Shown here one piece after another: positions 12,440 to 46,531 of a DNA stretch of 50,377 nt (positions are counted from its first letter, which is position 1; every line of letters starts with the position of its first letter). A model generated the notes under the pieces. The model was not told the origin of the DNA, searched no databases, and saw only the letters and a list, made by a program, of their open reading frames with translations. Position numbers and translations under genes: made by a program. The DNA comes from Oribacterium sp. NK2B42 (lineage in GTDB: Bacteria > Bacillota > Clostridia > Lachnospirales > Lachnospiraceae): NCBI RefSeq assembly GCF_000424445.1, contig NZ_AUJX01000031.1:1-50377 (forward strand), in the 5' to 3' direction.

Positions 12440-12473
12440 ATCCCAGTCAAAGAATTTCCCATGTTTTAAACCC
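12440..12473 (-). repeat. 34-nt intergenic motif, copy 1
   Basis: On the minus strand: GGGTTTAAAAC, eight variable bases, then TTCTTTGACTGGGAT. The same pattern without gaps occurs at 41871-41904 and 46498-46531. Here it sits between the terminator of the HTH regulator and the DUF6870-like gene. It runs into a hairpin GGGATGTG...CACATCCC. It may be a structured RNA, a binding site, or part of a tiny coding sequence (GLKHGKFFDWD). Confidence 0.75.
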
Positions 12474-12483
12474 TTTCACGCAC

Positions 12484-12523
12484 AAAAAAAGACGGCCAGC
12501 AGAGATAATCTCTACCAACCGTC
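12484..12523 (-). terminator. Terminator of the HTH regulator gene
   Basis: A 15-bp stem (12491-12505 pairing with 12509-12523, with GU pairs) is followed on the minus strand by T7 at 12484-12490. It stands 57 bases beyond the regulator stop and directly before motif copy 1. Confidence 0.85.
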
Positions 12524-12580
12524 AGTGCTTAATCCTCCTACAGCGCAGATATCATAATCAGCCACTCAGCCCAGGAATAG

Positions 12581-13390
12581 TTATATGTCCTTTTCATGAG
12601 CTTTTAGTATTTTCCGTTTGTTAAGTTCACTTCTATAATACATTTCTCCGTAATTCGGGTGTTGCTGTTCTGCCCATTGATCAGCATACTGATTCAAAAA
12701 ATGTTCAATACAAGAGAGCATTTTATGGTGAGCGCCAAGAATAGAATCTTCTTTCTCCCTTCTAATGATTCGCAGCGACTTATGATTGTCATCATCTACT
12801 AACAGCTTTGTTATTAAATCTAATTCAACTTCTGAAGATGCTTTTTCTGCGGCTTCGATGTGCTTATCAATATCTAATATTTCTACAATTCTACTAGCAT
12901 AATCTAGCCATGACATGGGTATAGCATAAAAGCTATCTCCGTTTAGCAGTTCTGACCACCAGGATGAATATGAGAATACATTATCATCATTATTTACCTG
13001 CTTATTCTCTTGCAGGCAATTGACCGCCTCTTCCGACAATCCTGTTATTTCGCATATTTTTCTAATCTGAACATCAGGAGTCCGAATGTCAGTAAACCCA
13101 AATAAGAAGTCAGCCGAACAATCGAAATACTTGCAATAGGCATTAACAAATTCCCCCTGCAAACATGTTGCGTCTTTTGCATGCAAGTGGATACGGATTT
13201 TCTTCTCGATGCTTCCTACAGCATTATCTTTGTTCTTGAATACATCATTTCCTCTAGTATTAACTGTAACGAGCTTTGCCTCCAACAGTTTTTTCGCTAA
13301 AGCTTTTGGCGTATCACAATCTTTCTCCGACATTAGCCCCAAAAGCTTCTGTCCAAACGGAGTCAAATTATCATCGTTTCTTATCGCCAT
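12581..13390 (-). CDS. HTH-type regulator, probable prophage repressor
   Basis: This 269-residue protein begins with a region that reads as an XRE-like DNA-binding domain (FGQKLLGLMSEKDCDTPKALAKKLLEAK, then DNAVGSIEKKIRIHL and FVNAYCKYFDCSADFLFG). A longer helical C-terminal part of unknown fold follows. The motif CKYFDCSADFLFG is typical of phage and ICE repressors of the Cro/CI type. An inverted repeat lies just upstream, and two genes of opposite strand start on the other side, as at a lysogeny switch. I infer, but cannot show, that it represses the element. Confidence 0.7.
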   Translation of the reverse strand: MAIRNDDNLTPFGQKLLGLMSEKDCDTPKALAKKLLEAKLVTVNTRGNDVFKNKDNAVGSIEKKIRIHLHAKDATCLQGEFVNAYCKYFDCSADFLFGFTDIRTPDVQIRKICEITGLSEEAVNCLQENKQVNNDDNVFSYSSWWSELLNGDSFYAIPMSWLDYASRIVEILDIDKHIEAAEKASSEVELDLITKLLVDDDNHKSLRIIRREKEDSILGAHHKMLSCIEHFLNQYADQWAEQQHPNYGEMYYRSELNKRKILKAHEKDI

Positions 13391-13410
13391 AATAATCCCT
13401 CACTTTCAAA

Positions 13411-13428
13411 AAAGATATTTTTATCTTT
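13411..13428. promoter_or_regulatory. Candidate operator between regulator and Smr-like gene
   Basis: The inverted repeat AAAGATA-TTTT-TATCTTT lies 21 bases upstream of the regulator start in the divergent intergenic region 13391-13556. This region is very AT-rich and should hold the two divergent promoters; I could not place -35 and -10 boxes with confidence. Confidence 0.4.
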
Positions 13429-13556
13429 TTATTGTTATTTATCATCTGTAAAAGACTTATAAAAAGACGAATTTTTCTTTTCTTCCTGTGAAAAGGATTG
13501 TACTATAAAGACACGGAACAAGCAAGAGCATTTTACAAAAATGAAAGGAGGCTCGT

Positions 13557-13868
13557 ATGATTCGCACAAGATTGAGAATGGTTCTAACACAAAGTGAGAT
13601 GAACCGGATAAAGATTTCTGAAAGCCACAGCGAAAAAATCCGTATCACCGCCGACGTACACGGCATGAAGTGCTACGAAGCAAGACGGTTCATCAACAAT
13701 ATCATCAATATTGTGCGAACAGCCTTCCAGCTTGTCATAATCCACGGATACAATCACGGAACCGCCATAAAGGAGATGCTTGCACAGAACTTCAGCAACG
13801 ATCATATCTATGAACAGTTCCCTGATCCTCGTAACCAAGGTGTAACACACATGCTGATCGCCGCATAA
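13557..13868 (+). CDS. Smr-domain-like small protein
   Basis: The 103 residues contain the two signatures of the Smr (MutS2 C-terminal) domain: DVHG at residues 33-36 and HGYNHG at 63-68, joined by helix-strand EARRFINNIINIV...LVIIHG. Smr domains are nicking or RNA-cleaving nucleases. This one stands alone with no MutS part. AAAGGAGGCTCGT precedes the ATG. It is one of only two element genes on the plus strand before the right-end IS and starts next to the repressor, a place often used for lysogenic or anti-repressor genes. Confidence 0.7.
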   Translation: MIRTRLRMVLTQSEMNRIKISESHSEKIRITADVHGMKCYEARRFINNIINIVRTAFQLVIIHGYNHGTAIKEMLAQNFSNDHIYEQFPDPRNQGVTHMLIAA

Positions 13869-13934
13869 AGGAAGGAGTAAACAGACATGGCAAAAGCTAC
13901 AAGAAACAACACAACTAACAAGGAGGAAACAAAA

Positions 13935-14372
13935 ATGGCAAAGTATATCGTTGAAGCGCCGGAGCCCAAGAAAGGTCAGAAATTAAGCTCAGGTGGCATT
14001 CGTGAAAACGGGAAGCTGGCGACGCAGTTCAAAAACCCGGTTCCTTACAAAGAACCGACGCTGCCACCCGCCGTTGTAACCCAAAAGCCAAACATTGAGC
14101 TTATTCGTAAAGAGCAGGCAAGAGCACGAAGAAATGAAGCGGGAATGTATTTACTCAGCTTAGCCTGGCAAGAATTCGGAGAGCCACTTCTCCGTTCCGG
14201 TCTCCGTAAACTTGGAAATTCAATCATCGATAAGATTGAGGGTCCTTACGACCAGCCTACGCAGCACATTCCTTCACAGGATCCTGTCGTTATCGATGTA
14301 GAAGCGGATGAAATCGAAACCGTTTACGACGATGATAAGATCATCCGCTTCCCCAACAGAAAAGTTATCTAA
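13935..14372 (+). CDS. Hypothetical phage protein
   Basis: No family is recognised. From the preferred ATG at 13935 (preceded by AAGGAGGAAACAAAA) the protein has 145 residues: a basic N-terminal half, a helical middle (EQARARRNEAGMYLLSLAWQEFGEPLLRSGLRKLGNSIIDKI) and an acidic tail (VEADEIETVYDDDKIIRF). An in-frame upstream ATG at 13887, also with a binding site (AAGGAGTAAACAGAC), would add 16 residues. It is 18 bases downstream of the Smr-like gene and collides with the endolysin gene: the two stop codons overlap by two bases. Confidence 0.65.
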   Translation: MAKYIVEAPEPKKGQKLSSGGIRENGKLATQFKNPVPYKEPTLPPAVVTQKPNIELIRKEQARARRNEAGMYLLSLAWQEFGEPLLRSGLRKLGNSIIDKIEGPYDQPTQHIPSQDPVVIDVEADEIETVYDDDKIIRFPNRKVI

Positions 14373-15862
14373 AGCTTTCTGGCATAATCAAGGCTAATCC
14401 AACCGACACCGCTCTTCAGTCTTCCCCAGCCGACTGAAGAGCCTTGTCCGGTTCTCACTTCCATGATCGTATACACACCGATTGGAATAAACTGAACCCT
14501 GTCATAATCCGTCCCCGGTCCTTTCCTTATATTTAGATCAGAGATACTGACCTTCACCAGAAACGGCACCTTCACCGCAGACTCCGCCGCCTTCGATGCA
14601 TACACTACCTTGCCATCCGCATCGAACACCTTATATCCCGGATTCTGATCCGCGCATTTCTTCGCGTTGTCCAGGATCTTATAAGCTCCCTTCTGGCTCT
14701 TGGCATCCGCCCATGACTTTCTAACACGGTACCAGCGGATCACCTCACCGCCGGAGTCCTTAACATCATACTGAGTCAGGTTCCACCTCTCAATGATGGA
14801 GATAAGCTTCTCCACATAGGTCAGGCTTGTCGCATAGCCGCCGTCCTTTATGATCTGCACAGCCTTCTTGTAATCCTTGCATCCCTTCAGCCCTGCATAT
14901 CTCAGCTTGCTACCGTTCTTTGCCCCAAGCAGATAAGCGGAATGGTCAGCAATGGAATCCTCAATGCAAGGATACTTTCTGAAGTCTGCAGTAATCGTGA
15001 CCATACTGCCGTCAGGATTCTGTTCCTGCGTCTTCTTCGTATACTTGCTCTTGCCGTCCCAACTGGACCCGCTCCAGGTATTCCCGGACTGGCTGCACTT
15101 CATCCCGAAGATATTGTTGGCATTCTGCGCAAGCTCACTCTTCCCATAACCAGATTCCAGAATGAACTGAGCCAGCGATACCGATGCCAGGATACCGCTT
15201 TTCTTCTGATCCGCAGTGAATAGCGCACCGACCTTCTTAATCGCATCTGACTCAGACAGGTCCTTCAGGACAGATGCCTGAGTCCCCTTTGCAGCCGAAC
15301 CGCCACCGGAATCAGCGGAACCCTGCAGCGCCTTCGTCACCTTCTCAGCCAGATCTCCCATTCTCGCATACATCCAGTTACCCGGACAGGACTTATTCGC
15401 AAACCACCTGTGAACCGTCAGGATCATCTCCCCGCTCTTTGGAGAATAGTTCAGCGTTTTGTCCTTATCCCCGAACCAGATCAGTTTGTTCTTGCCGTTG
15501 CGCTTGCAGATGTCTATGCAGAGCTTGATCAGAGTCTGATACACCACATCCCTGAAAGCATACGGCTCCGTGGTATCGGAAGCGCATTCGATCGTGATTG
15601 CCCTCTGGTCATTGGCATTGCTGGAAGTACACCAGGAACGATTCTTCTCTTCCACGTACAAAGCCACCCTGCCGTCACGATCAATGCCGTAGTTGCTGGA
15701 TGCCTGCGTGGACTGCTTCTCAAACCATTCTCCCAGGCCTTCCGCCGTACACTGACCGACCACACAATGAGGCGTGATCCGGTCAATGCTGTGCGTCCTC
15801 TTGCCAGAATGGTTCGGAGAAAGCTTCTTATAAACCACCATAGAACTGTTCGTATAAGTCAT
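14369..15862 (-). CDS. Endolysin: amidase, glucosaminidase and SH3b domains
   Basis: The 497-residue protein has an N-terminal N-acetylmuramoyl-L-alanine amidase domain to about residue 180 (TPHCVVG, EEKNRSWCTSSNANDQRAITIE, LTVHRWFANKSCPG, with zinc-type His and Cys). A glucosaminidase domain of the FlgJ type follows at about residues 200-370 (ASVSLAQFILESGYGKSELAQNANNIFGMK), then a short repeat, and a C-terminal SH3b cell-wall binding domain from about 440 (VSISDLNIRKGPGTDYDRV). It cuts both glycan and peptide links to release phage. It follows the holin, with overlapping stop and start (TAATG). Confidence 0.92.
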   Translation of the reverse strand: MTYTNSSMVVYKKLSPNHSGKRTHSIDRITPHCVVGQCTAEGLGEWFEKQSTQASSNYGIDRDGRVALYVEEKNRSWCTSSNANDQRAITIECASDTTEPYAFRDVVYQTLIKLCIDICKRNGKNKLIWFGDKDKTLNYSPKSGEMILTVHRWFANKSCPGNWMYARMGDLAEKVTKALQGSADSGGGSAAKGTQASVLKDLSESDAIKKVGALFTADQKKSGILASVSLAQFILESGYGKSELAQNANNIFGMKCSQSGNTWSGSSWDGKSKYTKKTQEQNPDGSMVTITADFRKYPCIEDSIADHSAYLLGAKNGSKLRYAGLKGCKDYKKAVQIIKDGGYATSLTYVEKLISIIERWNLTQYDVKDSGGEVIRWYRVRKSWADAKSQKGAYKILDNAKKCADQNPGYKVFDADGKVVYASKAAESAVKVPFLVKVSISDLNIRKGPGTDYDRVQFIPIGVYTIMEVRTGQGSSVGWGRLKSGVGWISLDYARKL

Positions 15863-16329
15863 TATTCTTCACCTTCCTTTTCGTCTTTGCCATCCTTGCC
15901 ATCCTCGCCATCCTTGCCATCATCTTCCTTCTCACTTCTGTCATGCAGCTGCTCCAGCACTATATGAAGTTTCCCTGGAATCGGAAGTCCCAGATACGCC
16001 GCATTCTCCACAAGACTCAGGCCTTCGTTGGAGATATAGAAGAAAATGATCGCGGTTCTGAGCACACCGGCTTCTCCGAAAATGTGCGTATCCAGCAGAT
16101 GCCCGATGCCAACCAGCGCAAAGATCAGAACCTTCCTGCAGATCCCCTTGAAGCCCACTGCGCTCGACAGCTTCTTATCTGCCACCGCGCACATGACCCC
16201 TGTGATGTAATCCAGCACCACAAAAGCCAGAAGCGCATAAAGCAGGCCGTCATTTCCGCCCAGGAAATAACCAAGCCAGCCGCCCACCGCCGCAAAGATT
16301 GCCTGAATCACATTCCAAAACTCCTTCAT
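15862..16329 (-). CDS. Phage holin with collagen-like acidic tail
   Basis: From the ATG at 16329 (preceded by AAGGAGGGCATGTGA) the protein has 155 residues with three or four hydrophobic segments (VIQAIFAAVGGWLGYFLGG, GLLYALLAFVVLDYITGVMCA, VLIFALVGIGHLL, TAIIFFYISNEGLSLVENAA), matching the phage_holin_4_1 (Cph1/TcdE) family. These make membrane lesions that let the endolysin reach the wall. The last 22 residues are a charged repeat of DGKDGE type, which is unusual. An in-frame ATG 21 bases upstream has no better binding site. Confidence 0.88.
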   Translation of the reverse strand: MKEFWNVIQAIFAAVGGWLGYFLGGNDGLLYALLAFVVLDYITGVMCAVADKKLSSAVGFKGICRKVLIFALVGIGHLLDTHIFGEAGVLRTAIIFFYISNEGLSLVENAAYLGLPIPGKLHIVLEQLHDRSEKEDDGKDGEDGKDGKDEKEGEE

Positions 16330-16350
16330 TTCACATGCCCTCCTTCGCAT

Positions 16351-16385
16351 AAAAATAGGCGGCTCCCATATCGGGATAACCGCCT
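16351..16385 (-). terminator. Terminator between tail fibre-like gene and holin
   Basis: A stem (AGGCGGCTCCC with GGGATAACCGCCT, small mismatch) is followed on the minus strand by ATTTTT. It separates structural and lysis genes and may lower transcription into the holin. Confidence 0.7.
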
Positions 16386-16413
16386 TAACAACACCTATTC
16401 ATTTATCCAACCC

Positions 16414-17817
16414 TTACGTCACCGTCTGCTCCGTCAGCGTATACGTGATCTTCATTGTCTTATCTGCATTCTTCACCACTACCTGACTCAGATTGCAGAT
16501 CGTAGCCAGATACGGAGTCAGCAACCATGTATATCTGTACTGGTTCAGATAAGCGCCGCCCCATGCGAAAACATATTCCTTGTACTGGAAGAACGGCGTA
16601 GATACATTCCCGCAATGCTCCCCGGCAAATAACGGAATCACATGATCATTCACATCGATCTCAAAATCATAAGCCACGATAATGTCATTGAGGGTGGTCA
16701 GGCAGCAGTCTGTACTTCCGGTCTCCCCGATGCATCTCATGGCGGAAGTAAATCCCAGACTGATCAGCGTCACATCCGTACTGTTGGAAATATTGATCTT
16801 ATACACGCCGGTCTTGTCATAAGACGGCACATACAAATACCCGTTTCTTACCACAGCACTTCTGTTCCCGGAAGGATAACTGGAGCCTTCCTTGAAGCTT
16901 CCCATCGTCATCAGCGTGGCATTGGAAAGCGTCCACTGACCTTCCGTAAAGGTGTAATCGCTCTTCTTGATCTTGATCCAAAGCACTGTTGCATTTCCGG
17001 ATGAATTTCCCTGATTGGCAAAGCCATACCAGTACCCGTCTCCACCGTCCATGAAGATTCCATACGGCGTATAGCTTCCGTAGAAATGGAAGGTGCTGCA
17101 CTGAAGGACCGTTGTATCCTCCAGCACCAACGTAGAATCATCCAGCTTCTCATTCAGGCCGATATCAAACACCGGGATCCGGTATCTTTTGATTGTTACG
17201 GTATTGCTCGCATATCCCAGGGAATAAAGCTTCGCATTCTCAAAATCCACGGTAACTGTCCGGAACAGGTCATTGATAAAACCATCCCCGTCATCCAGGC
17301 TGACCTTCTTGATCTGAAGCAGCGTAGTATCCACAGCCACCTCAGAGCCGTAAGCATTTGCTCCGCCCTGCTTGGAAGTAAGGCCCACCGCCGTGATCGT
17401 GCCGTTTCCCTGCGAAGGCGTAAACTCCCAGACGAACTTGTAACCATCTGTCAGCTTCATGCTCTCCGTCAGGTTCATGCTTCCCCTCTTCGTATTCGCC
17501 GTAGCATTGACATCATTGGAAGCATAAGCCACTGGCAAATTTGTTGACGGCAGATAAATGTTATCCGCCTGCTCCGTGATGGAACCCGGAAAAAGCAGGA
17601 TGCCTCCGATCATGTTCGGGCAAATCGGAAGCAGCGCATCGTTCCAGGTCAGAGAATCATCATACTGACCGCCGGCCTTATACATGACACCCATCGGATT
17701 TACTCCCAGAATGTCATTGACGGCATTGGTGACCATGTTGGTTTCCGATACCGTCTCCACATTTCCTGTATTCTGGTCTTCCAGTTCAATGACCAGATTT
17801 CCTGTATATCTCTTCAT
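16414..17817 (-). CDS. Phage tail or receptor-binding protein
   Basis: From the ATG at 17817 (AAGGAGGCTTTT in front) the product has 467 residues, mostly predicted beta structure with many Tyr, Asn and Gly. I see no known domain name. It begins MKRYTGNLVIELEDQNTGNVETV and later has repeated strand patterns (NGYLYVPSYDKTGVYKINI) like a beta-propeller-type fibre. Its place after the large tail protein and before the holin is that of host-recognition or baseplate proteins in siphoviruses. Confidence 0.65.
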   Translation of the reverse strand: MKRYTGNLVIELEDQNTGNVETVSETNMVTNAVNDILGVNPMGVMYKAGGQYDDSLTWNDALLPICPNMIGGILLFPGSITEQADNIYLPSTNLPVAYASNDVNATANTKRGSMNLTESMKLTDGYKFVWEFTPSQGNGTITAVGLTSKQGGANAYGSEVAVDTTLLQIKKVSLDDGDGFINDLFRTVTVDFENAKLYSLGYASNTVTIKRYRIPVFDIGLNEKLDDSTLVLEDTTVLQCSTFHFYGSYTPYGIFMDGGDGYWYGFANQGNSSGNATVLWIKIKKSDYTFTEGQWTLSNATLMTMGSFKEGSSYPSGNRSAVVRNGYLYVPSYDKTGVYKINISNSTDVTLISLGFTSAMRCIGETGSTDCCLTTLNDIIVAYDFEIDVNDHVIPLFAGEHCGNVSTPFFQYKEYVFAWGGAYLNQYRYTWLLTPYLATICNLSQVVVKNADKTMKITYTLTEQTVT

Positions 17818-17827
17818 AAAAGCCTCC

Positions 17828-19711: not shown

Positions 19712-19722
19712 AGCCGCCCTCC

Positions 19723-34242: not shown

Positions 34243-35139
34243 TCATTTCCAGCTTCGAGATTCATGATCCCATTTTGCTGAATAGTCGATGTTTCCGGTT
34301 ATACTCTCCACAATTGGAAGCAGTAACGCTTTGAGCAGTTTAACCACATCTTCCAGTTCTGCATTCACAAGCGCTTTCTTCTTTTTCAGAAAGGCTTTCC
34401 ATCTGCTCTGGTGAATCTCACTGGCCAAAAAGTCATCAGTGAAAGCAAAGATATCATCAAAACCCGTCCCTCTATGCTCAAAGGTTTCTCTGACTGCTTC
34501 CTTCAGTTCTATTCCGTCAAGGTCATATCTGTCAGCCAGGATATAAATATCGTAAAAATCCTTATATCTGCTGTTAGCATCTCCCAGAGAAACGATTGCT
34601 TCAAATTTCTCGGATATTACCGATGAAATGGAATATGCATAAATCTCTGGAACCTCCATATCCAGTAGAACGGGGAACTCCATTTTCACCCTGTCCGGAT
34701 AAACAACATCCCCAAATCCGATATCAATAGATACCGGAACTTTCGTCCTGTCCAGATATGCCATGATGGAAACATTCACACCGTGATATTCCTTGAACTC
34801 GGTGATGTCTATTACCTCCAGCGTATCCAGATCATACCGCAGGGCATCATCACACTCGATGGCGAAGATATTTTCAAATACCTTCTTCATATCCTCCACA
34901 TTATTCGGCATATTCCTTGCCAGAAGGTCTATGTCTCTTGTGGCTCTTGCGAACTCTCCCTCAAAGAGCGCATACAGGAATATCCCGCCCTTAAGTGTAA
35001 ATCGCTCCACATATTCTGACACCGACAGTCTGTATACGGTTCTTTCCAACCCATACGCCGTCAATGCTTCCTGAAATGTTTTTCCGCCGGCCACTGCCTG
35101 GTTCTTCAACCTGTCCTTTACAGATATTGCACTTATCAT
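34243..35139 (-). CDS. AbiEii nucleotidyltransferase toxin
   Basis: From the ATG at 35139 (GGAGGTGCTCGT in front) the protein has 298 residues. LKGGIFLYALFEGEFARATRDIDLLARNMP holds the GG...RxTxDxD nucleotidyltransferase motif of AbiEii/AbiGii toxins (DUF1814). VPVSIDIGFGDVVYPD and FEAIVSLGDANSRYKDFYDIYILADRYDLD are the later motifs, with KDFYDI typical. The toxin blocks growth of phage-infected cells. It overlaps the AbiEi stop by 4 bases (ATGA). Confidence 0.92.
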   Translation of the reverse strand: MISAISVKDRLKNQAVAGGKTFQEALTAYGLERTVYRLSVSEYVERFTLKGGIFLYALFEGEFARATRDIDLLARNMPNNVEDMKKVFENIFAIECDDALRYDLDTLEVIDITEFKEYHGVNVSIMAYLDRTKVPVSIDIGFGDVVYPDRVKMEFPVLLDMEVPEIYAYSISSVISEKFEAIVSLGDANSRYKDFYDIYILADRYDLDGIELKEAVRETFEHRGTGFDDIFAFTDDFLASEIHQSRWKAFLKKKKALVNAELEDVVKLLKALLLPIVESITGNIDYSAKWDHESRSWK

Positions 35140-35723
35140 ACGAGCACCTCCAGATATTGTCTCATCGCTTTGTCGCATTTCATCAGTTCTGCATATTTCA
35201 GAAGTCGGTTCAGATTCCGGTCTTTCCTCTGCAGATAGGTCACAAGGATCTCCTTGGTTTCTTCAATCCCGACCTTCTCTCTGTAAAACACGATATCCAC
35301 GACGGTTTTTTCCATATCATAGATCTGGAATTCATTCTTGCCTTCCCTAACCGTAGTAACGCCCAGCTCATGCCTGTCATCAGTATAATGATGGACATTC
35401 ATCTGCGGCCAGTCCGGCACGGTAGATATCTTTGACTTCCTCGGTATAGCTACATCAACAGCATCCGGAATGAATGTTGTCAGATGATAATAAACCGCTG
35501 CGCTGAGCAGGCAGATCACACCCCTCGGTGCGTATGCTACGGTATAATAGAAGTCTGATTCCTCACCACGATACTCTGCGTTCTCGTAATAGCTCTTATT
35601 CAGTTTTATAAGCTTTCCTTCATCGACCAGCCTGCTGACCTTATACTGCGAGAAGCCTTTTTCCTTAAGCTCCTTCATGGAAAAGATCTTCTGATCTTCA
35701 GGAAGTATTGCTGTACCTGCCAT
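35136..35723 (-). CDS. AbiEi antitoxin
   Basis: From the ATG at 35723 (GAGGTGGAAAAG in front) the protein has 195 residues: an N-terminal winged helix (FSMKELKEKGFSQYKVSRLVDEGKLIKLNKSYY), which binds the promoter, and a C-terminal domain with GVICLLSAAVYYHLTTF and VYDMEKTVVD-type (IYDMEKTVVDIVFYR). Together with AbiEii it forms a type IV toxin-antitoxin system giving abortive infection. Likely self-regulated from the 200-base gap upstream. Confidence 0.92.
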   Translation of the reverse strand: MAGTAILPEDQKIFSMKELKEKGFSQYKVSRLVDEGKLIKLNKSYYENAEYRGEESDFYYTVAYAPRGVICLLSAAVYYHLTTFIPDAVDVAIPRKSKISTVPDWPQMNVHHYTDDRHELGVTTVREGKNEFQIYDMEKTVVDIVFYREKVGIEETKEILVTYLQRKDRNLNRLLKYAELMKCDKAMRQYLEVLV

Positions 35724-36320: not shown

Positions 36321-36356
36321 GAAAAAGCCGCCACGGTATTCTGCTCCGTAACGGCT
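36321..36356 (-). terminator. Terminator of the replication/early operon
   Basis: An 11-bp stem (AGCCGCCACGG with CCGTAACGGCT) is followed on the minus strand by TTTTTC. It lies after the DUF1492-like regulator and before HNH, the usual place where late transcription is antiterminated. Confidence 0.75.
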
Positions 36357-36419
36357 CTCTCATCTTTCGCTTTTGCCAGTTTAACATTATCACATAGGCT
36401 TACTGTACCGAACTTGATT

Positions 36420-36851
36420 TTACTGTATTGTTTCCGGAATCATTATTTCATCCAGGGCATTCCTGTGAAGACGGAATACATTATCGATTCCATAACCAAG
36501 TTCAATGGCGATCTCTTCCCATCTCATATAGGACAAGTACCGCAGTTCCAGTATCGTCTGAAGCTCTGCACTCTCCACTGCTTTGATCCTGCGGATGATA
36601 TCCTTCTTCAGTTCTACAAGCTTCATCATATCCTGATTGATCTCATTCTCCAGGTCGATGATCTTGATAATGGCATCTTCCATTCTGGAGCCATCTCTGT
36701 TCGGGCTCTTCGGCATATCCGAATATGTCACCGTTGCTTTAGTGGCCAGGTCATGAAGATCTTCGATCTGTCCCAGCTTGCTCTCGATCCGCTGGTTCAG
36801 CCCGAAGGCCTGTGATAAATATTTCTTGGCTTCCTGCTGATGTCTGTTCAT
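36420..36851 (-). CDS. DUF1492-like late-gene regulator
   Basis: 143 residues, helical, ending in a sigma-70 region 4-like helix-turn-helix (LETILELRYLSYMRWEEIAIELGYGIDNVFRLHRNAL, here starting LQTILELRY). Members of DUF1492/ArpU/RinA act as activators of late phage genes. It is the last gene before the packaging module and lies just before a terminator, in agreement with this. Confidence 0.8.
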   Translation of the reverse strand: MNRHQQEAKKYLSQAFGLNQRIESKLGQIEDLHDLATKATVTYSDMPKSPNRDGSRMEDAIIKIIDLENEINQDMMKLVELKKDIIRRIKAVESAELQTILELRYLSYMRWEEIAIELGYGIDNVFRLHRNALDEIMIPETIQ

Positions 36852-39366: not shown

Positions 39367-39819
39367 TCACCCTTTTCTGGCATATATCCTCTGCTTCCCG
39401 TAAATTGGGATGGTCTTCGTCTTCCCGGTCTTAACCCAGCCGTCCAGCCTTGCCATAATGGCTGAGATGGCATAGGAATCCGCATTCTTCATATCTTCCT
39501 TAGGCTTCCCGAAGCATTCCGCCCAGATCTCGATATTGGAGACCTCCATCCGCTTCGTTACGCCTTCCTTCCGTGTCGGATCCCCTGTATCACGCACATA
39601 GTCCCTGCGCTTATAGACATCCATCGACTCCCAGCCCTCCGGCAGAAGCATTTCCAGATACTCCACCACCAGACCTTCACGGTCATCACGCTCCATCGCC
39701 GCCCGCTGCTCATCTTTGGCAAATTCCTCCAGCTCCGCCGGAAGATATAACTTTTCTCCCGCTTTGGCGATCACCTTGACTTCCGCCCAGATCTGCTGCA
39801 CCGTATCCTGATCAAGATC
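39367..39819 (-). pseudogene. Detached C-terminal part of the VapE-like protein
   Basis: The reading frame of the 39820-41691 gene continues after its TAG without shift: DLDQDTVQQIWAEVKVIAKAGEKLYLP through ...GKQRIYARKG and TGA. QIWAEVKVIAKAGEKLYL is a conserved part of the family just after NRRYWNVKV. An internal ATG-type start at 39801 gives a 144-residue frame. Whole length with read-through would be 774 residues. Confidence 0.75.
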
Positions 39820-41691
39820 CTACGCTTTATGCTTTCCTTTGCCGGTCACTTTCACATTCCAGTACCTACGGTTCCCGGTAATATCCCGGAGATAGCCATT
39901 CTCATTGTTTGTGGTACCGAAGAATACGCACTGTCTCGGATGCGGCGTTACCCTTCTACCGAAACTCGCACGGTACTTATCGTCCTGTCTGGAAATGAAA
40001 GCCTTCACCTTGTCCAGGTCAGCTTTTTTCATGCCGGCCAATTCGCCGATCTCCATGATCCAGTACCCCTGCAGCTTCTCCGCCGCCGTCTTGTCGTTCA
40101 TGTCTGAGAGGTTCAGGCTGTCCGAATACCACTCACCGCCCAGTTTAGAGATGAAAGTACTCTTTCCGATGCCCTGATCTCCGTTCAGTACGATCATGTT
40201 GTCGAACTTCACTCCCGGATTATGGACACGGACATAAGCAGCGCACAAAAGCTTCCTTGTCACCGCCCGGACATACGGTGTATCTTCCGCTCCCAGATAA
40301 TCCACCAATGCAGTCTCGACACGTTTCACCCCGTCCCACTCCGGCAGGTTCTTAAAGAAATCCCTGATCGGATGGTAGGAACGGTCATCCACGACCTTTG
40401 CAACCGCGATGTTGTAATTTCTCTGGGAGAAGGAGCCGTACTTTTCGTCCACATAACAGATGAGCTGTGCATCGTCCGCGTCTCTCCAGAACTTGGACGG
40501 ATGCTTCCACAGAACCGGATCCCTGATCTCCATACCGTCTGCAAGCTGGTTGAACACAATCTGCTTCATGTACTCATCGTTTTCCATGATCAGCTTCAGG
40601 TTATGAAGCGTATTCTCGATCTCAGCCGTCTTCTTCTGATAGGTCAGCTGTGTCTTCCAGGCATCAGGATCTTCCTCGTCGAATTCCATCGCTGCCGACT
40701 GCTGCCGTTCTGCAAAGATGGTCAGCTTCACCTGCTCATCGCTGCTTGCGAATTCCGCCATCGCATTGAAGGACTTCTTCTCATCATCATCCGGGAACTT
40801 ATGAACCCTCACGACATCAAAGGCATTGAGCAGCTTCCCGCAGGCGGGATCAGAAGCATGATGGCTGTATGCGAACTTTTCATCCAGGATCTGCACGCCG
40901 GCGGAACTGTCTGCAGGAATGTAGTCATACCTGCCTTCCATCGCCGAAGCTTCATACACATCCGGCAGGAACTTCTCAATAGCGTCCCTGATCCCGTAAG
41001 TACGACAGAAAACGCCGACGATTCCTTCCTTCGTCAGTGGATCAGCCTGCTTCTGCACATTACTCTTTACGACTTCCGACTCCCTGGACGATACCGGCCA
41101 TGTGGAGATATCGTGCCAGTTGTCATACTTTGCAAGGTATTCATCCGGATCCAGAAGCTCACCGTCCATGACCTCGTATACGTATTCTCCGTTGCTTGAC
41201 GTGGACGGCCAGTACATAAGCCTGTTCGGCTCGTAGGTGGAATCATCGAAAAGATCCATCCCGATTTCCTGTGCGACCTTCCTTCCGACCGCCGGATATT
41301 CATCCTCACTGACTTCTCTCTTAAGCGGGATCACCAGCCTGAGTCTCGGAGCATCCGGCGTATGCTTATGTGTGGAATAGACGCACATTTTGAAATCCGT
41401 CAGCATCTTCAGTTCATCCAGAATCCCCGGCATCCCGTAATCCATATCCAGTGTCAGCATAGAGCGGCAGAGAACATTCCCGACCTTACGCCTGCCATCC
41501 TTCAGATGCCCGGCAACATAGCCGCCCACATCCTTAATGGCATCGCGCCTGGCCTTCGTCATCTTCTGGTACTCTTCCACGGTCTCTGTTGTGACCTGCG
41601 TGGTGCTTACCCTCCTGCAGAAGTCCTCCCAGGAGATCTCGTTGTTCTTCCATTTCTTCGCTGATCTGGAATCCCCATACGCAATCTTCAT
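39820..41691 (-). CDS. VapE-like primase/helicase, interrupted by in-frame TAG
   Basis: 623 residues. The first 200 contain a primase-like domain (RSMLTLDMDYGMPG, YSTHKHTPDAPRLRLVIPL, DDSTYEPNRLMYWPS). The second half has the VirE/D5-type ATPase: LNGDQGIGKSTFISKLGGEWYSDS (Walker A), DMNDKTAAEKLQGYWIMEIGELAG and FFGTTNNENGYLRDITGNRRYWNV. It then stops at TAG (39820) although the family goes on. The likely original codon is TGG. It initiates phage replication; the truncated protein may be inactive. Confidence 0.88.
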   Translation of the reverse strand: MKIAYGDSRSAKKWKNNEISWEDFCRRVSTTQVTTETVEEYQKMTKARRDAIKDVGGYVAGHLKDGRRKVGNVLCRSMLTLDMDYGMPGILDELKMLTDFKMCVYSTHKHTPDAPRLRLVIPLKREVSEDEYPAVGRKVAQEIGMDLFDDSTYEPNRLMYWPSTSSNGEYVYEVMDGELLDPDEYLAKYDNWHDISTWPVSSRESEVVKSNVQKQADPLTKEGIVGVFCRTYGIRDAIEKFLPDVYEASAMEGRYDYIPADSSAGVQILDEKFAYSHHASDPACGKLLNAFDVVRVHKFPDDDEKKSFNAMAEFASSDEQVKLTIFAERQQSAAMEFDEEDPDAWKTQLTYQKKTAEIENTLHNLKLIMENDEYMKQIVFNQLADGMEIRDPVLWKHPSKFWRDADDAQLICYVDEKYGSFSQRNYNIAVAKVVDDRSYHPIRDFFKNLPEWDGVKRVETALVDYLGAEDTPYVRAVTRKLLCAAYVRVHNPGVKFDNMIVLNGDQGIGKSTFISKLGGEWYSDSLNLSDMNDKTAAEKLQGYWIMEIGELAGMKKADLDKVKAFISRQDDKYRASFGRRVTPHPRQCVFFGTTNNENGYLRDITGNRRYWNVKVTGKGKHKA

Positions 41692-41822
41692 CTTCTCCTG
41701 GCTCCTTTCCTGCGGGATACCTGCATCAGCTGTAACCTCTGGTCACGCTCTACAGTCCGCACGTTCCTGGATGGATCAGCATTCCTGCGACCATCTTTAT
41801 TACCTCGTGGTCTGTCTTTCAT
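41688..41822 (-). CDS. Small basic phage protein
   Basis: A 44-residue frame from the ATG at 41822 (AAAGGAGGAACTGCC in front): MKDRPRGNKDGRRNADPSRN... is rich in Arg and ends in RRKGARRR. It overlaps the VapE start by 4 bases. No domain is recognised. A longer frame starting at TTG 41915 has no ribosome binding site and would translate the repeated motif; I consider the ATG the start. Confidence 0.5.
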   Translation of the reverse strand: MKDRPRGNKDGRRNADPSRNVRTVERDQRLQLMQVSRRKGARRR

Positions 41823-41870
41823 GGCAGTTCCTCCTTTAACTGAAAAATCCGGAGGGACAGTTCCCTCCGA

Positions 41871-41904
41871 ATCCCAGTCAAAGAAATCCGCAGGTTTTAA
41901 ACCC
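41871..41904 (-). repeat. 34-nt intergenic motif, copy 2
   Basis: GGGTTTAAAAC-N8-TTCTTTGACTGGGAT on the minus strand. Upstream bases GAAATCCG pair with CGGATTTC in the variable part, making a stem that closes over the conserved GGTTTAAAAC loop. A second hairpin GGAGGGA-ACTG-TCCCTCC with TTTTT follows. It lies right after the DNA polymerase stop. Confidence 0.75.
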
Positions 41905-41920
41905 CCGGATTTCAAAAAGG

Positions 41921-43912
41921 TCAGTCTTTTTTGTAAAACATGGTTTCGTATCCGTCCGCCCGAAGGACAAGTCCATCTGCCCAGGGCGGAGTCCGTCCCA
42001 TCTGTTCACAGATAGCGTTCAAATCAACATTCATGCTGCACTCGATGATCAATTCATCATGGACATGAGCACAAATAAAACAGTGCCGAAGCGTCTTCAT
42101 GGCATAACACAGAATATCTCTGGATATCGCCTGCACAATGTTCTCTACGAACTTCGGACCGTAGCTCTCAATCCGCTCCCATTTCTTTGTGGCACCTACT
42201 CCCTCATAGGTAACGGATTCACCGCCAAAACGATTTTCCCCCATCCTCGGCTTCACATAGGACAGCTGCCTTCCTGACGGTAGCGTAATAAACAACATGC
42301 CGTTCCTGCATTCAAAACAGATGCCTTTAAGCACAGACGGTTCCCGCTGCCGGATCGCCTTTTTGACAGCCCTGTCCACGTCCCACCAGAACCGAACGAT
42401 ATTCGGATTTGCAGAACGCCAGGAATCTACCAGCGGCTGCAGTTCCTCTTCCTGTAGTCCCATTTCGATAGCTCCCATGGATTTCAGGGCACCGACTGAT
42501 CCGCCATAACCAAGCGCCAGTTCAGCGATCTTGCCCTTCTGCCTTAACTCCGCATTCTGGCCATGCTTCTCAACCGGAACGCCGAACATCGCAGACGCTG
42601 AGGCACAGTAGATGTCACCGTTGTTTACGAATACGTCCGTTCTCCACTGCTCCCCGGCAAGCCATGACAATACTCTTGCCTCGATAGCGGAAAAGTCGGA
42701 TACGATGAACTTCCTTCCAGCTGCCGGTACAAACGCCGTCCGGATCAATTCTGACAGCACCGCCGGTACATTCTCATATAACATCGTCAGAGCATCCAGA
42801 TCCCCGGTCTTCACTAGGTCCCTCGCCTGTTCCAGATCCTCCATGTGATTCTGAGGAAGGTTCTGCAACTGAATCAGCCTTCCCGCCCATCTGCCTGAAC
42901 GATTGGCTCCATAGAACTGGAACATTCCCCTTGCCCTGCCATCCAGACAAACTGCATTCTGCATCGCCTGATACTTTTTCACAGATGACTTAGCCAGCTG
43001 CTGCCGGAGTCGTAAAACTTCCTTCTGATCCTCAGGGACTTCCTCGATTAGCTTCGCCACGTCCTTCTTTCCCAGTGACTCCACTTCCGTTCCCTGATCA
43101 GACAGCCACTGCTTCATCTGTGCCACACTGTTCGGATTCTCCAAGTCAGTCAGTTCTTTCATTGTCTCCTGCAGTTCCTCGCGTGTCTGTCCGTCCAGTT
43201 CGATTGCTTCCTCCACGACCTTCATATCAAGAGCAATACCCCTGTCGTTGATTTCCTGATCCAGATGATATTCATCCCATACAAAGCCGGGCACCGGATA
43301 CCCCGAAAGCCTTTTCTGAATCGACATCTCCACCTCCACGTCCATCTTGTTGTAGGATTTGAAGAGATCCCATTTCTCCGGATCATGCTCCGGCAGATTT
43401 CTTGTCCTGCCTCCGTTTACTTTCGTAGCCTTACACGGCACACAGAAATACCTGATCAGATCACGGCCTTCCTTCAGTTTCTGTTGTTCAAGACCTAACA
43501 CCGCACCGGAACCCTCCAGTGACAGCGGAAGACCCATATAGGCAGACCACACCATTGAACACCGCCACGCCTCCGGATCCAGATAATTCCGGACAGAATC
43601 TCCATCTATGCTATAGCTGCGGAAGTGCTCCGGATGGTTCCGCCGCAGCCACATGGACAGACACACCCTCTCAAAGGAAGCATTGAACGCCCATTTCACC
43701 ACAGACTCATCCGATAAGGCAGAGATCACGTTCTCCGGTATCTCTTCCCCGCAGGCAAGATCGACCACCTGCACTTCGCCGCCATTTACGGCGTACCCAA
43801 ACAACAGGATGTCAAAATCCGGATGCTCCACATACTTGTACACGCCGCACTTGTTCAGGTCATATCCTGAGTAAGTCTCGATATCTATACTCAAAGTCTT
43901 AATATCAGACAC
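41921..43912 (-). CDS. Phage DNA polymerase (family A)
   Basis: The GTG at 43912 is preferred, since GGAGGTGGATACA in front is a proper binding site; an ATG at 43927 would overlap it. The 663-residue protein has a 3'-5' exonuclease part (SIDIETYSGYDLNKCG) and the polymerase motifs DFSAIEARVLSWLAG (motif A), KIAELALGYGGSVGAL (motif B) and HVHDELIIEC (motif C). It copies the phage genome. It ends in TGA, directly followed by motif copy 2. Confidence 0.93.
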   Translation of the reverse strand: MSDIKTLSIDIETYSGYDLNKCGVYKYVEHPDFDILLFGYAVNGGEVQVVDLACGEEIPENVISALSDESVVKWAFNASFERVCLSMWLRRNHPEHFRSYSIDGDSVRNYLDPEAWRCSMVWSAYMGLPLSLEGSGAVLGLEQQKLKEGRDLIRYFCVPCKATKVNGGRTRNLPEHDPEKWDLFKSYNKMDVEVEMSIQKRLSGYPVPGFVWDEYHLDQEINDRGIALDMKVVEEAIELDGQTREELQETMKELTDLENPNSVAQMKQWLSDQGTEVESLGKKDVAKLIEEVPEDQKEVLRLRQQLAKSSVKKYQAMQNAVCLDGRARGMFQFYGANRSGRWAGRLIQLQNLPQNHMEDLEQARDLVKTGDLDALTMLYENVPAVLSELIRTAFVPAAGRKFIVSDFSAIEARVLSWLAGEQWRTDVFVNNGDIYCASASAMFGVPVEKHGQNAELRQKGKIAELALGYGGSVGALKSMGAIEMGLQEEELQPLVDSWRSANPNIVRFWWDVDRAVKKAIRQREPSVLKGICFECRNGMLFITLPSGRQLSYVKPRMGENRFGGESVTYEGVGATKKWERIESYGPKFVENIVQAISRDILCYAMKTLRHCFICAHVHDELIIECSMNVDLNAICEQMGRTPPWADGLVLRADGYETMFYKKD

Positions 43913-43930
43913 TGTATCCACCTCCATTCA

Positions 43931-43966
43931 AAGAAGGCACCGACCGCTCCCGACCGATGCCCTCCG
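43931..43966 (-). terminator. Hairpin before DNA polymerase
   Basis: A 12-bp stem with GU pairs on the minus strand (AGGGCATCGGTC with GGTCGGTGCCTT) and a short loop ends in CTTT. It may weaken transcription into the polymerase gene. The T-tract is short, so the call is weak. Confidence 0.4.
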
Positions 43967-43972
43967 TCTGAT

Positions 43973-44140
43973 TTACTGAGCAGTTTCTTCCTTCTTAGCC
44001 TGCTCTTCACGTTCCTGCTTTTTCTTCTCACGATGGTCGTGGATCTTTGTGCCGATCCACATAGTGAGCATTGAAATGATAATCACCACATTGATGGTCG
44101 TGCAGGTAATAAGCACCTGCGAATATACTGTCTGATCCAT
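43973..44140 (-). CDS. Small membrane protein
   Basis: A 55-residue frame: MDQTVYSQVLITCTTINVVIIISMLTMWIGTKIHDHREKKKQEREEQAKKEETAQ in parts. A hydrophobic segment of about 20 residues is followed by a highly charged tail. It has the form of a single-span membrane protein. It fits between the hairpin and the DUF2815 gene with a leader GAGGTAAAAAGA. Function unknown. Confidence 0.55.
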   Translation of the reverse strand: MDQTVYSQVLITCTTINVVIIISMLTMWIGTKIHDHREKKKQEREEQAKKEETAQ

Positions 44141-44207
44141 TCTTTTTACCTCGATTCTTAGATTGTCACCGGCGGCAGCTTATACTACCGCCAGCTTTGG
44201 TTTTCAG

Positions 44208-44777
44208 TTATGACAGGAAATCGTCATCCTCATCCGTAGCAAAGTCATCCTCTGCCCTGGACTTACCTCCAAGAGGCTCGCCGTCACGGATCTTCTGAAG
44301 GTTATTCAGACCGCAGGCGATACCACGGTTTCCGTTGCTGTTGAATGCGTAGAAGTTAATGGAAGCCCTGCCGTACACACCGGAATAAACCTCCGAACGG
44401 TCAATGATAGGCTGTCTGTCGGCGTCCACGATCCCCGGAGCCATTCCGCTGTTCGCGTTGACAAAGTAAGCGTTGGCATAGGCCTCATCATCCGGTCTCT
44501 CCGTATCTCCATCCCTTAAGGGAGTCTTCAGTGCGGAAAGAGCAGGAACACTCTTGCCGTTGCCCTTCAGCTTGCTCTGTCCCTCATCGTATGCTGCCTG
44601 AATCGCCGCCCTGATCTTTTCCAGCGTCTTTGTGTCAGACTTCGGAATGATCAACGACACCGAAAACTTCGGAGCACCGCCGTTGATGGACTTCGCGTCC
44701 CAGACGTTTGCATAAGACCATCTGGTCTCAGGACCTGTGATAACCTTTGTCGGATTGATAAAATTCTTGTTAGACAT
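44208..44777 (-). CDS. DUF2815 protein (probable ssDNA-binding)
   Basis: 189 residues with the DUF2815 pattern: RWSYANVWDAKSINGGAPKFSVSLIIPKSD, YANAYFVNANSGMAPGIVD and VYSGVYGRASINFYAFNSNGNRGIACGLNNLQKI. The family stands in for single-strand binding proteins in Firmicute phages. The acidic tail DDEDDDFLS resembles an SSB partner tail. It is preceded by the DUF2800 nuclease gene. Confidence 0.92.
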   Translation of the reverse strand: MSNKNFINPTKVITGPETRWSYANVWDAKSINGGAPKFSVSLIIPKSDTKTLEKIRAAIQAAYDEGQSKLKGNGKSVPALSALKTPLRDGDTERPDDEAYANAYFVNANSGMAPGIVDADRQPIIDRSEVYSGVYGRASINFYAFNSNGNRGIACGLNNLQKIRDGEPLGGKSRAEDDFATDEDDDFLS

Positions 44778-44790
44778 AATGTATTTCCTC

Positions 44791-45912
44791 CTAATTGTCT
44801 TTGAAATCTTCAGCCGCCGTATTCATGGCAGGCCGTTTGTCACTCTCCGGCACAAGCGCCGGTTTACCTGGCGGCTTATGAGTAAGTCCGCCCAACAGTT
44901 CCTCAAATCTCTTCTTCCCAAGCAGGGAAGTCATCGCTGTAATACCAAGCAGCTTTTTTTCAAAAGGATCTTCCCCTGCTGCCTGTACCGCTTCAGCGAC
45001 TGCAGCTTCATCGGTATACTTCCGGTTGCTCCTGCCCTCGACCACTTTGAAGCCCGGATATTCTGTTCCGGAAAGAGCCTGCTGCAGTGCATATTCCTTA
45101 ACATCGCCCGCCCATGAAACAAGACTGTCGATCTTTGGCAGGATCGCCGCGATCTCTTCTTCATCCAACGTGTCCGGCATCTCAAAGTCATACCGTGCAA
45201 GCTCCAGATTGTACTCTGCACGCTTCCTGCAGGTCGCCTTAATCTTGCAGAACTGGCAGTGTTCTCCGGCTTTAAACTCACCCTTGCCTTCATATGCCAG
45301 CTTTGCGGTCGGCACCAGGACCTCTTCCGCCCAGGCAAGCAGTTCTTCCTTTGTCATGGAATATGTGCTGACATTTTCCCTGCGTGGCTGGTAGATCGTC
45401 ATCCGGATCTCTCTGATATCGTAGATACCGTCAAACAATTCCACCGCTCCCAGCGCATAACACATCATCTGCGGATTCTTCTCTGCCGATACCAAAACGC
45501 CAAGACCATGTTTGTAGTCAATGATCTGAAGCACATCATCCGCCACGATCACGCAGTCACCGGTTCCGAAACCATCCTCTACCCATCGGGAGAAGTCCAG
45601 TCTCTGCTCCACCATGATCTGTGGATCCGGACAGTGCTTCTTCGCCTCTTCCACCTGTTCCATTACATAGGAGCAGTATCCTTCAGCGCAGTCCTGCATT
45701 TCCTGATCGTAGTAGTCAAGGTTCTCCGTCGGATCTTCCACATCCCTTCCAAGAGCCTTTTCTACCAGATAGGCACAGAGCTCATGGCAGTCCGTCCCCT
45801 GCCGTGCATAGGGACTTGCCCTCTCATCCACACCTTCGCAGGCTTTCGCTGACGGCGGACATTCAAGCCACCTGTGCGCCGATGATGCCGACAGAAATGC
45901 GTGTTTAGCCAT
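44791..45912 (-). CDS. DUF2800 protein (PD-(D/E)XK nuclease family)
   Basis: 373 residues. SSAHRWLECPPSAKACEGV at the N-terminus is followed by TGDCVIVADDVLQIIDYKHGLGV (catalytic D-x-K-type) and a cysteine patch CQFCKIKATCRKRA near residue 225, as in Cas4/RecB-like nucleases (DUF2800). These take part in phage recombination next to DUF2815. It ends in TAG just before the ribosome site of DUF2815. Confidence 0.9.
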   Translation of the reverse strand: MAKHAFLSASSAHRWLECPPSAKACEGVDERASPYARQGTDCHELCAYLVEKALGRDVEDPTENLDYYDQEMQDCAEGYCSYVMEQVEEAKKHCPDPQIMVEQRLDFSRWVEDGFGTGDCVIVADDVLQIIDYKHGLGVLVSAEKNPQMMCYALGAVELFDGIYDIREIRMTIYQPRRENVSTYSMTKEELLAWAEEVLVPTAKLAYEGKGEFKAGEHCQFCKIKATCRKRAEYNLELARYDFEMPDTLDEEEIAAILPKIDSLVSWAGDVKEYALQQALSGTEYPGFKVVEGRSNRKYTDEAAVAEAVQAAGEDPFEKKLLGITAMTSLLGKKRFEELLGGLTHKPPGKPALVPESDKRPAMNTAAEDFKDN

Positions 45913-46252
45913 CTCCCAGCACCTCCGCTTCCGCCTTCAGTTCACCGTACTTCGCCGGATCTACCTCAGACAGCTTGTCCGCGCCATACTTGGAAAGCAG
46001 CTCCTTCACCTCGCTGGTGTGTCCCTGTCTGGACTTCTCCGCAAGAACCGCCCTGACCTCTGCAAGTGTGACCTCTTTTGCCTTCTGCTTCTTCTCCGTC
46101 TTCTTTGCAGGCTTTTCTTCCTTTGTCTCTGCTGCCGGTTCCGCGTCCGCTCCGGAGAACATCTCCGTCAGCGTTTCAGAGATCCCGATCAGCACCTCGC
46201 CGCAGTGCTTAAGCTCTGCAAGTTCCGCCGCAAGCTCGCTCATTTTTCCCAT
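45905..46252 (-). CDS. Phage protein of unknown function, Lys/Ala-rich linker
   Basis: 115 residues. An N-terminal helix (SELAAELAELKHCGEVLIGISETLTEMF), a Glu/Lys/Ala-rich linker (PAAETKEEKPAKKTEKKQKAK) and a C-terminal helical domain (TLAEVRAVLAEKSRQGHTSEVKELLSKYGADKLSEV), like rRNA biogenesis or Rho N-type helices that bind nucleic acid. GGAGGAAGCGGCA precedes its ATG. It overlaps DUF2800 by 8 bases and the next gene upstream by 44. Confidence 0.75.
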   Translation of the reverse strand: MGKMSELAAELAELKHCGEVLIGISETLTEMFSGADAEPAAETKEEKPAKKTEKKQKAKEVTLAEVRAVLAEKSRQGHTSEVKELLSKYGADKLSEVDPAKYGELKAEAEVLGDG

Positions 46253-46454
46253 TGCCGCTTCCTCCTTCTTTGACTTCTTTCACATCCACCGACTCGACCG
46301 ACTGTCCAGGCTTAAGCAGATACACCTGCGTAAAATCCCCGAACAGGAATCTGATCAGTCTCGCAGGAAGCCTTACATCCGCTCCTTTGAGAACCGTCCC
46401 GGTATTGCCGTGTGGATCAGTGACGTTGATGGTGATTCTGTGTTTCAATGCCAT
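46209..46454 (-). CDS. Small phage protein of unknown function
   Basis: From the ATG at 46454 (GCGAGGTGGAAAAG in front) the product has 81 residues: KHRITINVTDPHGNTGTVLKGADVRLPARLIRFLFGDFTQVYLLKPGQSVESVDVKEV. The first part is a small beta-rich domain. No family is recognised. It is the first gene of the early operon after motif copy 3 and overlaps the next gene by 44 bases. Confidence 0.7.
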   Translation of the reverse strand: MALKHRITINVTDPHGNTGTVLKGADVRLPARLIRFLFGDFTQVYLLKPGQSVESVDVKEVKEGGSGNGKNERACGGTCRA

Positions 46455-46497
46455 CTTTTCCACCTCGCTTTCTGCAGGAAGTTCCTCTCCCTTGCAT

Positions 46498-46531
46498 ATC
46501 CCAGTCAAAGAAAGAGGGGCGTTTTAAACCC
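46498..46531 (-). repeat. 34-nt intergenic motif, copy 3
   Basis: GGGTTTAAAAC-N8-TTCTTTGACTGGGAT on the minus strand, 17 bases after the stop of the sigma-like gene. Here GAAGAGGGG pairs with CCCCTCTTTC around the TTTAAAAC loop: the stem differs in sequence from copy 2 but pairs again. Confidence 0.75.

Follow-up and report, generated by a model that had tools for sequence, protein, structure and literature searches.

A two-part element of 34 nucleotides was found in three intergenic places of the window, that is, the whole analysed stretch of 50,377 nucleotides of Oribacterium sp. NK2B42 (assembly GCF_000424445.1, contig NZ_AUJX01000031.1), and is probably a set of operon-start promoters, insulated by terminators and recognised by a phage-encoded sigma-region-4-like (sigma4-like) protein. 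The element is one version of a two-part signal that stands before up to three gene groups, each phage having its own version, and the version appears matched to the sigma4-like protein encoded beside the first copy.

The pattern GGGTTTAAAAC-N8-TTCTTTGACTGGGAT was found to match the window exactly three times, always on the minus strand (Table 1), which confirms the positions and strand given by an earlier sequence-only reading of this DNA for a 34-nt motif present thrice. No further match at up to 3 mismatches was found in the window, in 100 dinucleotide shuffles, or outside the window in the 3.8-Mb draft genome of the host (G000). That reading had also placed two copies after the stop of a gene and one after a terminator, each heading a new gene set (DUF6870-recombinases, VapE, early genes), and the annotation agrees: site 1 follows the stop of the sigma4-like open reading frame (ORF), which ends at 46548, site 2 follows the stop of the polA ORF, which ends at 41921, and site 3 follows the terminator 12491-12523. 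Sites 1, 2 and 3 were copies 3, 2 and 1 of the sequence-only reading, and W1, W2 and W3 denote the window copies 1, 2 and 3 in that older numbering.

Versions of the element and their statistical match to the sigma4-like protein

Related phages were collected by their sharing of the first gene after site 1 (phrog_7234). With the window's own phage excluded, 17 of 20 leaders between a sigma4-like gene and phrog_7234 were found by eye to contain the same plan in other letters (e.g. GAGGTTAAAAT ... TTTGCCTGTGAC), and the plan was not clearly present in the leaders L184, L198 and L199. On scanning 18 phages with their own letters, three copies were found in 6 phages, two in 9 and one in 3; these phages were preselected for the first leader and are 18 of the 20 genomes or records searched (all but G456 and G458), several are fragments and some are near-identical, and the records of G120, G450, G453, G459 and of the named phages beyond 50 kb are partial. 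Six distant phages were found to contain three copies (3 phages), two (2 phages) or one (1 phage) with a quite different block 1 (e.g. AAAACGTCCTTTT, AATCCTCAACTT, CTTCGGATT), in a scan run without shuffle control, in which the third copy of G047 matched least well (24 of 39 letters, against 21 for the next best). One of the six is a further prophage of the host itself (G000:C2:93374, locus L217), which contains a sigma4-like gene and the version ACAGGGGGTTGTTT ... TTCGG.TTGTAGTAGA in two copies. Four of six named phages were found to contain a repeated element scoring above all 40 shuffles, at three sites in MW387018 and PV036412 and at two in PV036425 and PV036416; two of the six had already been examined before, and two of the four held-out phages were positive. 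In the induced Gardnerella phage vB_Gva_AB1, the three sites follow the 'sigma-24' gene, the DNA polymerase gene and the muramidase gene.

The neighbours of 50 copies were checked. The sigma4-like gene was found directly before site 1 in 22/22 cases (18 by blastp; G450, G463, G054 and G000C2 by profile), polA directly before site 2 in 15/19, ending 31-74 bases upstream, and recombinases after site 3 in 8/9.

Both blocks and the spacing were found to be near-constant within a phage and to differ between phages. Among 39 copies of 16 phages, the within-phage distance was 0.10 letters for the block 1 core (1.38 expected) and 0.33 for block 2 (2.09 expected), where the expected value was obtained by dealing the copies out among phages and 0/5000 permutations were as tight. 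The flanks showed no such excess of likeness within phages, and the spacer showed part of it (4.3 vs 5.8 of 9 letters). The blocks are coordinated within each phage, so a factor that reads the sites should exist; of the three options of the sequence-only reading it is the "coordinated binding site" which is supported. If a phage copied a short repeat in concert between its sites (gene conversion), with no reader protein, this would also make copies alike within a phage and would fit a spacer more alike than expected, but the spacers agree in only about half of their letters, both blocks agree amid unrelated flanks, and the match with the sigma4-like protein is left unexplained; we consider this explanation very improbable.

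The distance between element versions was found to follow the distance between sigma4-like proteins with rho 0.78-0.79 at site 1, 0.81 at site 2 and 0.91 at site 3 (up to 18, 18 and 9 phages, respectively), and with rho 0.80 (17 phages), 0.85 (15) and 0.90 (8) when one phage per sigma4 type was kept. Site 2 lies mostly 4.3-5 kb from the sigma4-like gene, next to polA, and site 3 lies about 30 kb away. The correlation of the element was -0.11 to -0.22 with polA and about 0 with SSB and DUF2800, three proteins that correlate with one another at 0.61-0.81; TerL agrees with none of these. Among families present in at least 12 phages the sigma4-like protein was first, with 0.64 vs 0.42 for the next. 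Several sites per genome, constant spacing and change coordinated with one factor, as belong to a promoter set, were found together, more weakly in the core group.

The sigma4-like protein and the proposed promoter model

The sigma4-like protein was matched by Sigma70_r4_2 in 15/15 aligned homologues and by TIGR02937 above cut-off over the C-terminal half only. The model of the C-terminal domain had a predicted local distance difference test (pLDDT) score of about 90 and was found to superpose on sigma region 4 chains at 1.1-1.7 A over ~60 columns.

The sigma4-like protein would bind the element and direct RNA polymerase to start just after block 2, either as a complete sigma factor or jointly with that of the host. 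Block 1 (GGTTTAAAAC, preceded by a T tract at a distance of 8-11 bases) would lie near -35 and block 2 (TTTGACTGGGAT) near -10; in a profile over the sites the T tract was found at a fixed place upstream of block 1. The transcript would start at the base of the following hairpin, which would protect its 5′ end, and a start at the first G of the hairpin leaves ~17-18 bases between the likely hexamers, a rough fit. The upstream operon would be ended by an intrinsic terminator, located just upstream of the third site and overlapping block 1 at most of the second sites and at one half of the first. In this manner the phage could activate three gene groups at once, each insulated from read-through: the replication genes, another operon associated with replication (here that of VapE) and the integration module.

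A canonical promoter was rejected as being no better than shuffles: the best TTGACA/TATAAT score at or near the 50 sites was 7.48 vs 7.75 for mononucleotide-shuffled sequence, with 4/50 reaching 9, and pattern scans of the three window sites gave no canonical promoter on the strand of the element.

Several observations weigh against promoters read by the sigma4-like protein. As the -10 of a housekeeping sigma factor block 2 is poor, and a terminator was not found at 11/22 first sites. No repeated element was found in two of the six named phages (PV036426, PV036433), and no recognisable sigma4-like phage gene was found in G127 and G145, which contain 2-3 sites. The second copies of G463 and G000C2 do not follow polA, that of G463 having been counted as site 2 in the within-phage distance, correlation and non-redundant analyses, and G455 and G462 have a gap or an extra ORF. 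The ninth third-site copy, of G047 (G047:C23, loci L295 and L302), lies ~300 bases before that phage's own sigma4-like gene, a place that self-activation would fit. For the protein, no Foldseek match at E <=0.001 and no profile match to region 2 (core binding, -10 melting) was found, and the N-terminal model was poor (predicted template modelling score, pTM, 0.35). Membership of the sigma-70 family is borne out by region 4 and not by region 2. The protein may act as a regulator with region 4 alone, or it may be a sigma factor whose N-terminal part has diverged very far. The correlation owes most to the deeper groups: with the five most distant phages removed it was 0.49 at site 1 (n 12, p 0.03), 0.31 at site 2 (n 11, p 0.10) and 0.67 at site 3 (n 6, p 0.06). 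In the core group block 2 follows the sigma4-like protein (0.38-0.85) and block 1 does not do so significantly (0.17-0.28), block 1 being the part that region 4 is expected to read. The element is followed also by phrog_7234 (0.66-0.67, n 10) and by VapE (0.59 and 0.69, n 9; partial correlation 0.50, p 0.049 at site 2), and in an open scan of 24 families the sigma4-like protein came fourth, below a minus-strand frame (n 8), phrog_7234 (n 10) and VapE (n 9).

Some of these points would suit an operator, in which case each site would lie beside an unrecognised promoter and be bound by some phage repressor or activator in place of the sigma4-like protein. Coordinated change at several sites requires some trans-acting factor, the link to the sigma4-like protein is statistical and weak in the core group, and in small sets the element is tracked by VapE and phrog_7234 as well. 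Against it stand the first rank of the sigma4-like protein among the families of at least 12 phages, and the build of the element, with two long blocks, a spacer of free sequence and no palindrome common to the versions; an operator seems unlikely to us. Promoters matched to the sigma4-like protein are preferred.

Phages that pair a sigma-like factor with promoters of its own are known, and SPO1 gp28 and gp33/34 as well as T4 gp55/gp33 are phage-encoded sigma factors or sigma-like coactivators. The present arrangement is like them in pairing a phage product with a sigma-like domain with phage promoters of their own two-part sequence, and unlike them in that only region 4 is recognisable, at most 3 sites are present per genome, the sequence varies from phage to phage with the protein, and the sites are joined to terminators. 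The late regulators ArpU/RinA are likewise small sigma-region-4-like regulators of Gram-positive phages and resemble the present protein in this; the ArpU-like gene of the window (36420-36851, below cut-off) is a different gene, located near the packaging genes and unlinked to the three sites. The new part is the several-place, terminator-joined, phage-by-phage matched arrangement.

Hairpins, terminators and readings at the RNA or peptide level

The sequence-only reading had proposed a regulatory RNA with a covarying stem. The pairing was found to be real in copies 2 and 3, with folding energies of the stem region of -18.6 and -18.2 kcal/mol, and copy 1 was without pairing (-3.8). Among the 14 exact-type members (the window copies and the same version elsewhere), the stem reached p <=0.01 by shuffling in W2 and W3, was nominally significant in the fold test only (1/2 tests) in L082, was merely suggestive in L047 and L048, and was unseen in the remaining 9/14. 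The pairing of block 2 with downstream sequence was nominally significant in 3/14 (W1, W2 and L082). The element is not a generally conserved RNA fold, and the stem was not found to be kept by compensatory change in most members; with the stem clear only in W2 and W3, absent in 9/9 third-site copies of related phages, and running, where present, into a T stretch as in an intrinsic terminator, the proposed RNA with a covarying stem is not supported. No Rfam family matched the window at the curated cut-off, and 6 matches up to E 10 within 41500-47500 were all below it.

In copies 2 and 3 we take the stem to be an intrinsic terminator that shares sequence with the element; the inverted repeats 46510..46537 and 41883..41913 were both unlisted by the simple pattern scan for terminators. 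Across the versions, with hairpins and terminators called at thresholds of our own, a strong hairpin that overlaps block 1 and runs into a T stretch before block 2 was found at 16/19 second sites, 11/22 first sites and 0/9 third sites, and a separate terminator was found directly upstream in 9/9 copies of site 3. The stem is seen in copies 2 and 3 and not in copy 1 because it ends the polA and sigma4-like genes, and copy 1 has its own terminator (12491-12523). The hairpins are arranged as at a junction where one operon ends and the next starts.

An RNA antitermination site of the nut/put kind would consist of a transcribed hairpin and a boxA-like UUCUUUGAC that bind a phage protein or host Nus factors, so that the polymerase reads through the operon. 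A hairpin loop, a boxA-like stretch and a second hairpin are present in fixed order in several copies, and element-encoded RNA antiterminators are known from Gram-positive mobile elements, as described for canT of Tn916 in the text available to us of PMC11658703. That element and HK022 put resemble the present sites in acting at operon starts of mobile elements near terminators, and they act as RNA on downstream terminators, whereas the terminator here precedes the element or shares sequence with it. Not all copies form hairpin 1, and it was found at 0/9 third sites; there the terminator precedes the element, which speaks against an RNA antiterminator, as an element downstream of a terminator cannot act on that terminator as RNA and can be a promoter. 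The spacing is near-constant with or without the hairpin, and the boxA of host relatives' ribosomal RNA (rRNA) leaders, GTACCTTGAAAA, is only partly like the element stretch. An antitermination site seems unlikely to us. The boxA comparison set TTCTTTGACTGG of the element against GTACCTTGAAAA in the rRNA leaders of same-genus genomes, no 16S match being found in the window's own assembly. The B. subtilis-type boxA pattern gave scattered single-mismatch matches in the genome.

The third option of the sequence-only reading was a leader peptide, GLKxxxFFDWD, whose frame is open in all three window copies. In relatives the same frame contains a stop inside in L046 (TTTGACTAG) and directly after in L047 (GGGATATGTAA), and related phages read TTTGCCTGTGAC and the like at these positions; the peptide is refuted as a general explanation and is given next to no probability. 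The element as a promoter matched to the sigma4-like protein is again preferred.

Table 1. Coordinates of the element copies, hairpins and adjoining genes in the window
Feature	Position	Strand	Description
Site 1 copy (W3)	46498..46531	-	Block 1 GGGTTTAAAAC 46521-46531, block 2 TTTGACTGGGAT 46498-46509; precedes early replication genes
Site 2 copy (W2)	41871..41904	-	Directly 3′ of polA, 5′ of VapE
Site 3 copy (W1)	12440..12473	-	5′ of DUF6870 and three serine recombinases
Sigma-region-4-like protein gene, 177 aa	46548..47081	-	Putative partner of the element; the methionine of MLFRKT is used as start
Genes after site 1	44208..46454	-	phrog_7234, phrog_408, DUF2800, ssDNA-binding protein; then polA at 41921-43927
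VapE gene after site 2	39820..41691	-	44-aa ORF in between
Integration module after site 3	7502..12360	-	DUF6870 and three serine recombinases
Inverted repeat GAAGAGGGG/CCCCTCTTTC	46510..46537	-	Overlaps block 1 of site 1, then TTTG; read as intrinsic terminator of the preceding gene; -13.9 kcal/mol, z -4.0
Inverted repeat GAAATCCG/CGGATTTC	41883..41913	-	Overlaps block 1 of site 2; read as intrinsic terminator; -13.9, z -4.6
Intrinsic terminator, 15 pairs, T7	12491..12523	-	Just upstream of site 3; -21.7 kcal/mol
Hairpin GCAAGGGAG/CTTCCTGC	46474..46495	-	Directly 3′ of site 1, would lie at the transcript 5′ end; similar hairpin in relatives
Hairpin CGGAGGGA/TCCCTCCG	41850..41869	-	Directly 3′ of site 2
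Hairpin GGGATGTG/CACATCCC	12419..12444	-	At the end of site 3

Exact-type relatives, phage identity and neighbouring genes

The sequence-only reading had named absence from any other genome as counting against the motif, and this was not what was found: other versions are present in many phages, and 11 further copies of the window version were found, 4 in viral contigs (L002, L011, L015, L082), others in genome contigs (L018, L040, L042, L044) and in 3/396 other genomes of the family (L046, L047, L048). The block-to-block distance was identical in all 14 exact-type copies and the 9 bases between vary. The named hosts are presumably all Lachnospiraceae, which we take to be the family of Butyrivibrio and Porcincola. 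For lack of the spacing and flanks, 8/13 viral-contig stretches and 25/29 genome-contig stretches were dropped, and 1 of the 40 stretches shown by a further search was kept (L082). A search of 397 genomes of the family with a sequence-only model matched 31 genomes at E 0.01, in a listing from which the window's own genome is absent; the matches in G040, G367 and G380 were real, and the others inspected matched by half only, often within coding sequence, an NlpC-like FFDWD stretch being one example. Block 2, letter for letter or nearly so, was found in frame as FFDWD at L119-L122, L135-L136 and L138-L139, with no link to the element, in coding sequences that look to us like the NlpC/P60 type. 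No shared place outside the element was found for the 14-base block 2 pattern at one mismatch in 8 genomes, and a blast search of phage and plasmid records with the element gave nothing convincing.

We looked for the window-type sigma4-like protein in 13 genomes or records, of which 12 contain window-type sites and one, G120, a different version. Besides the window genome, a close homologue (84%) was found in G367 next to its copy, followed by a 38% relative in G120 and weak matches with E near 1e-3 in G380 and G441; the protein was not found in G040, G440, G442, G443 and four virus records, three of which are 5-kb fragments and where drafts may be incomplete. Some integration modules have the window's start signal in drafts where the reader protein was not found, and these may be decayed or dependent on a helper phage. 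L018 looks decayed, and L044 would be the best candidate for helper dependence. At L044:2510-4545 a DUF6462 gene, a Tn916-type integrase and a 621-aa ORF are present, with a window-type site before DUF6462, in a draft in which no window-type protein was found. In the 53-kb phage G444, which is of the same kind, a window-type site (L082:6650-6682) is located on the strand opposite to the replication genes, and its own early leader has other letters.

It is conceivable, though we think it rather doubtful, that one of the most widespread gut phage groups has a fast-diversifying private transcription code, in which the sigma4-like protein of each phage is matched to its own operon-start sites, and that some outside integration modules (the L044 element with DUF6462 and the Tn916-type integrase; the recombinase modules L042 and L015) carry the code without the protein, their expression then depending on the activity of a same-code phage in the cell, as a satellite wired to its helper by promoter sequence. 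A matched protein-site set with many natural versions would allow a direct test of DNA choice by a sigma-region-4-like protein. It would also supply promoters that may be independent of one another, and a sequence signature for asking which mobile elements respond to which phage.

G145 (L298), G127 C1 (L292) and G227 C23 (L296) seem to have lost the DNA between the third and the first site. In G145 two element copies were found 84 bases apart after a lysin-like gene, and a lysin-like gene and a terminator precede the first site in G127 and G227; a sigma4-like phage gene was found in none of the three.

The domain DUF2815 of the window phage is taken by us to be PF10991. The window phage is a prophage and was found to match all nine core genes of Candidatus Heliusviridae as listed in the text available of PMC9226167 (DUF2800, PF10991, polA, TerL, VRR-NUC, SNF2, portal, Clp protease and capsid), a group reported there in >90% of the participants of one cohort. 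In the available text of that source the word 'promoter' occurs nowhere and 'sigma' once, as a supplier name. No description of these sites was found by a literature word search, which covered few subscription papers, or in the available passages of PMC9226167 and PMC7996455, and the literature found, as far as it was available, contained nothing on how Candidatus Heliusviridae switch on their genes. In the available part of the Gardnerella phage paper, ORF3 is given only as 'RNA polymerase subunit sigma-24'.

Other genes of the window were a DndB-like gene (DNA sulfur modification-associated) at 48167-49495 near the prophage start and an AbiEii-type nucleotidyltransferase toxin gene at 34243-35178 among the phage genes. 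A TraG/TraD-type coupling protein fragment was found at 5519-6139 beyond the recombinases, and the prophage may therefore adjoin or lie in a conjugative element.

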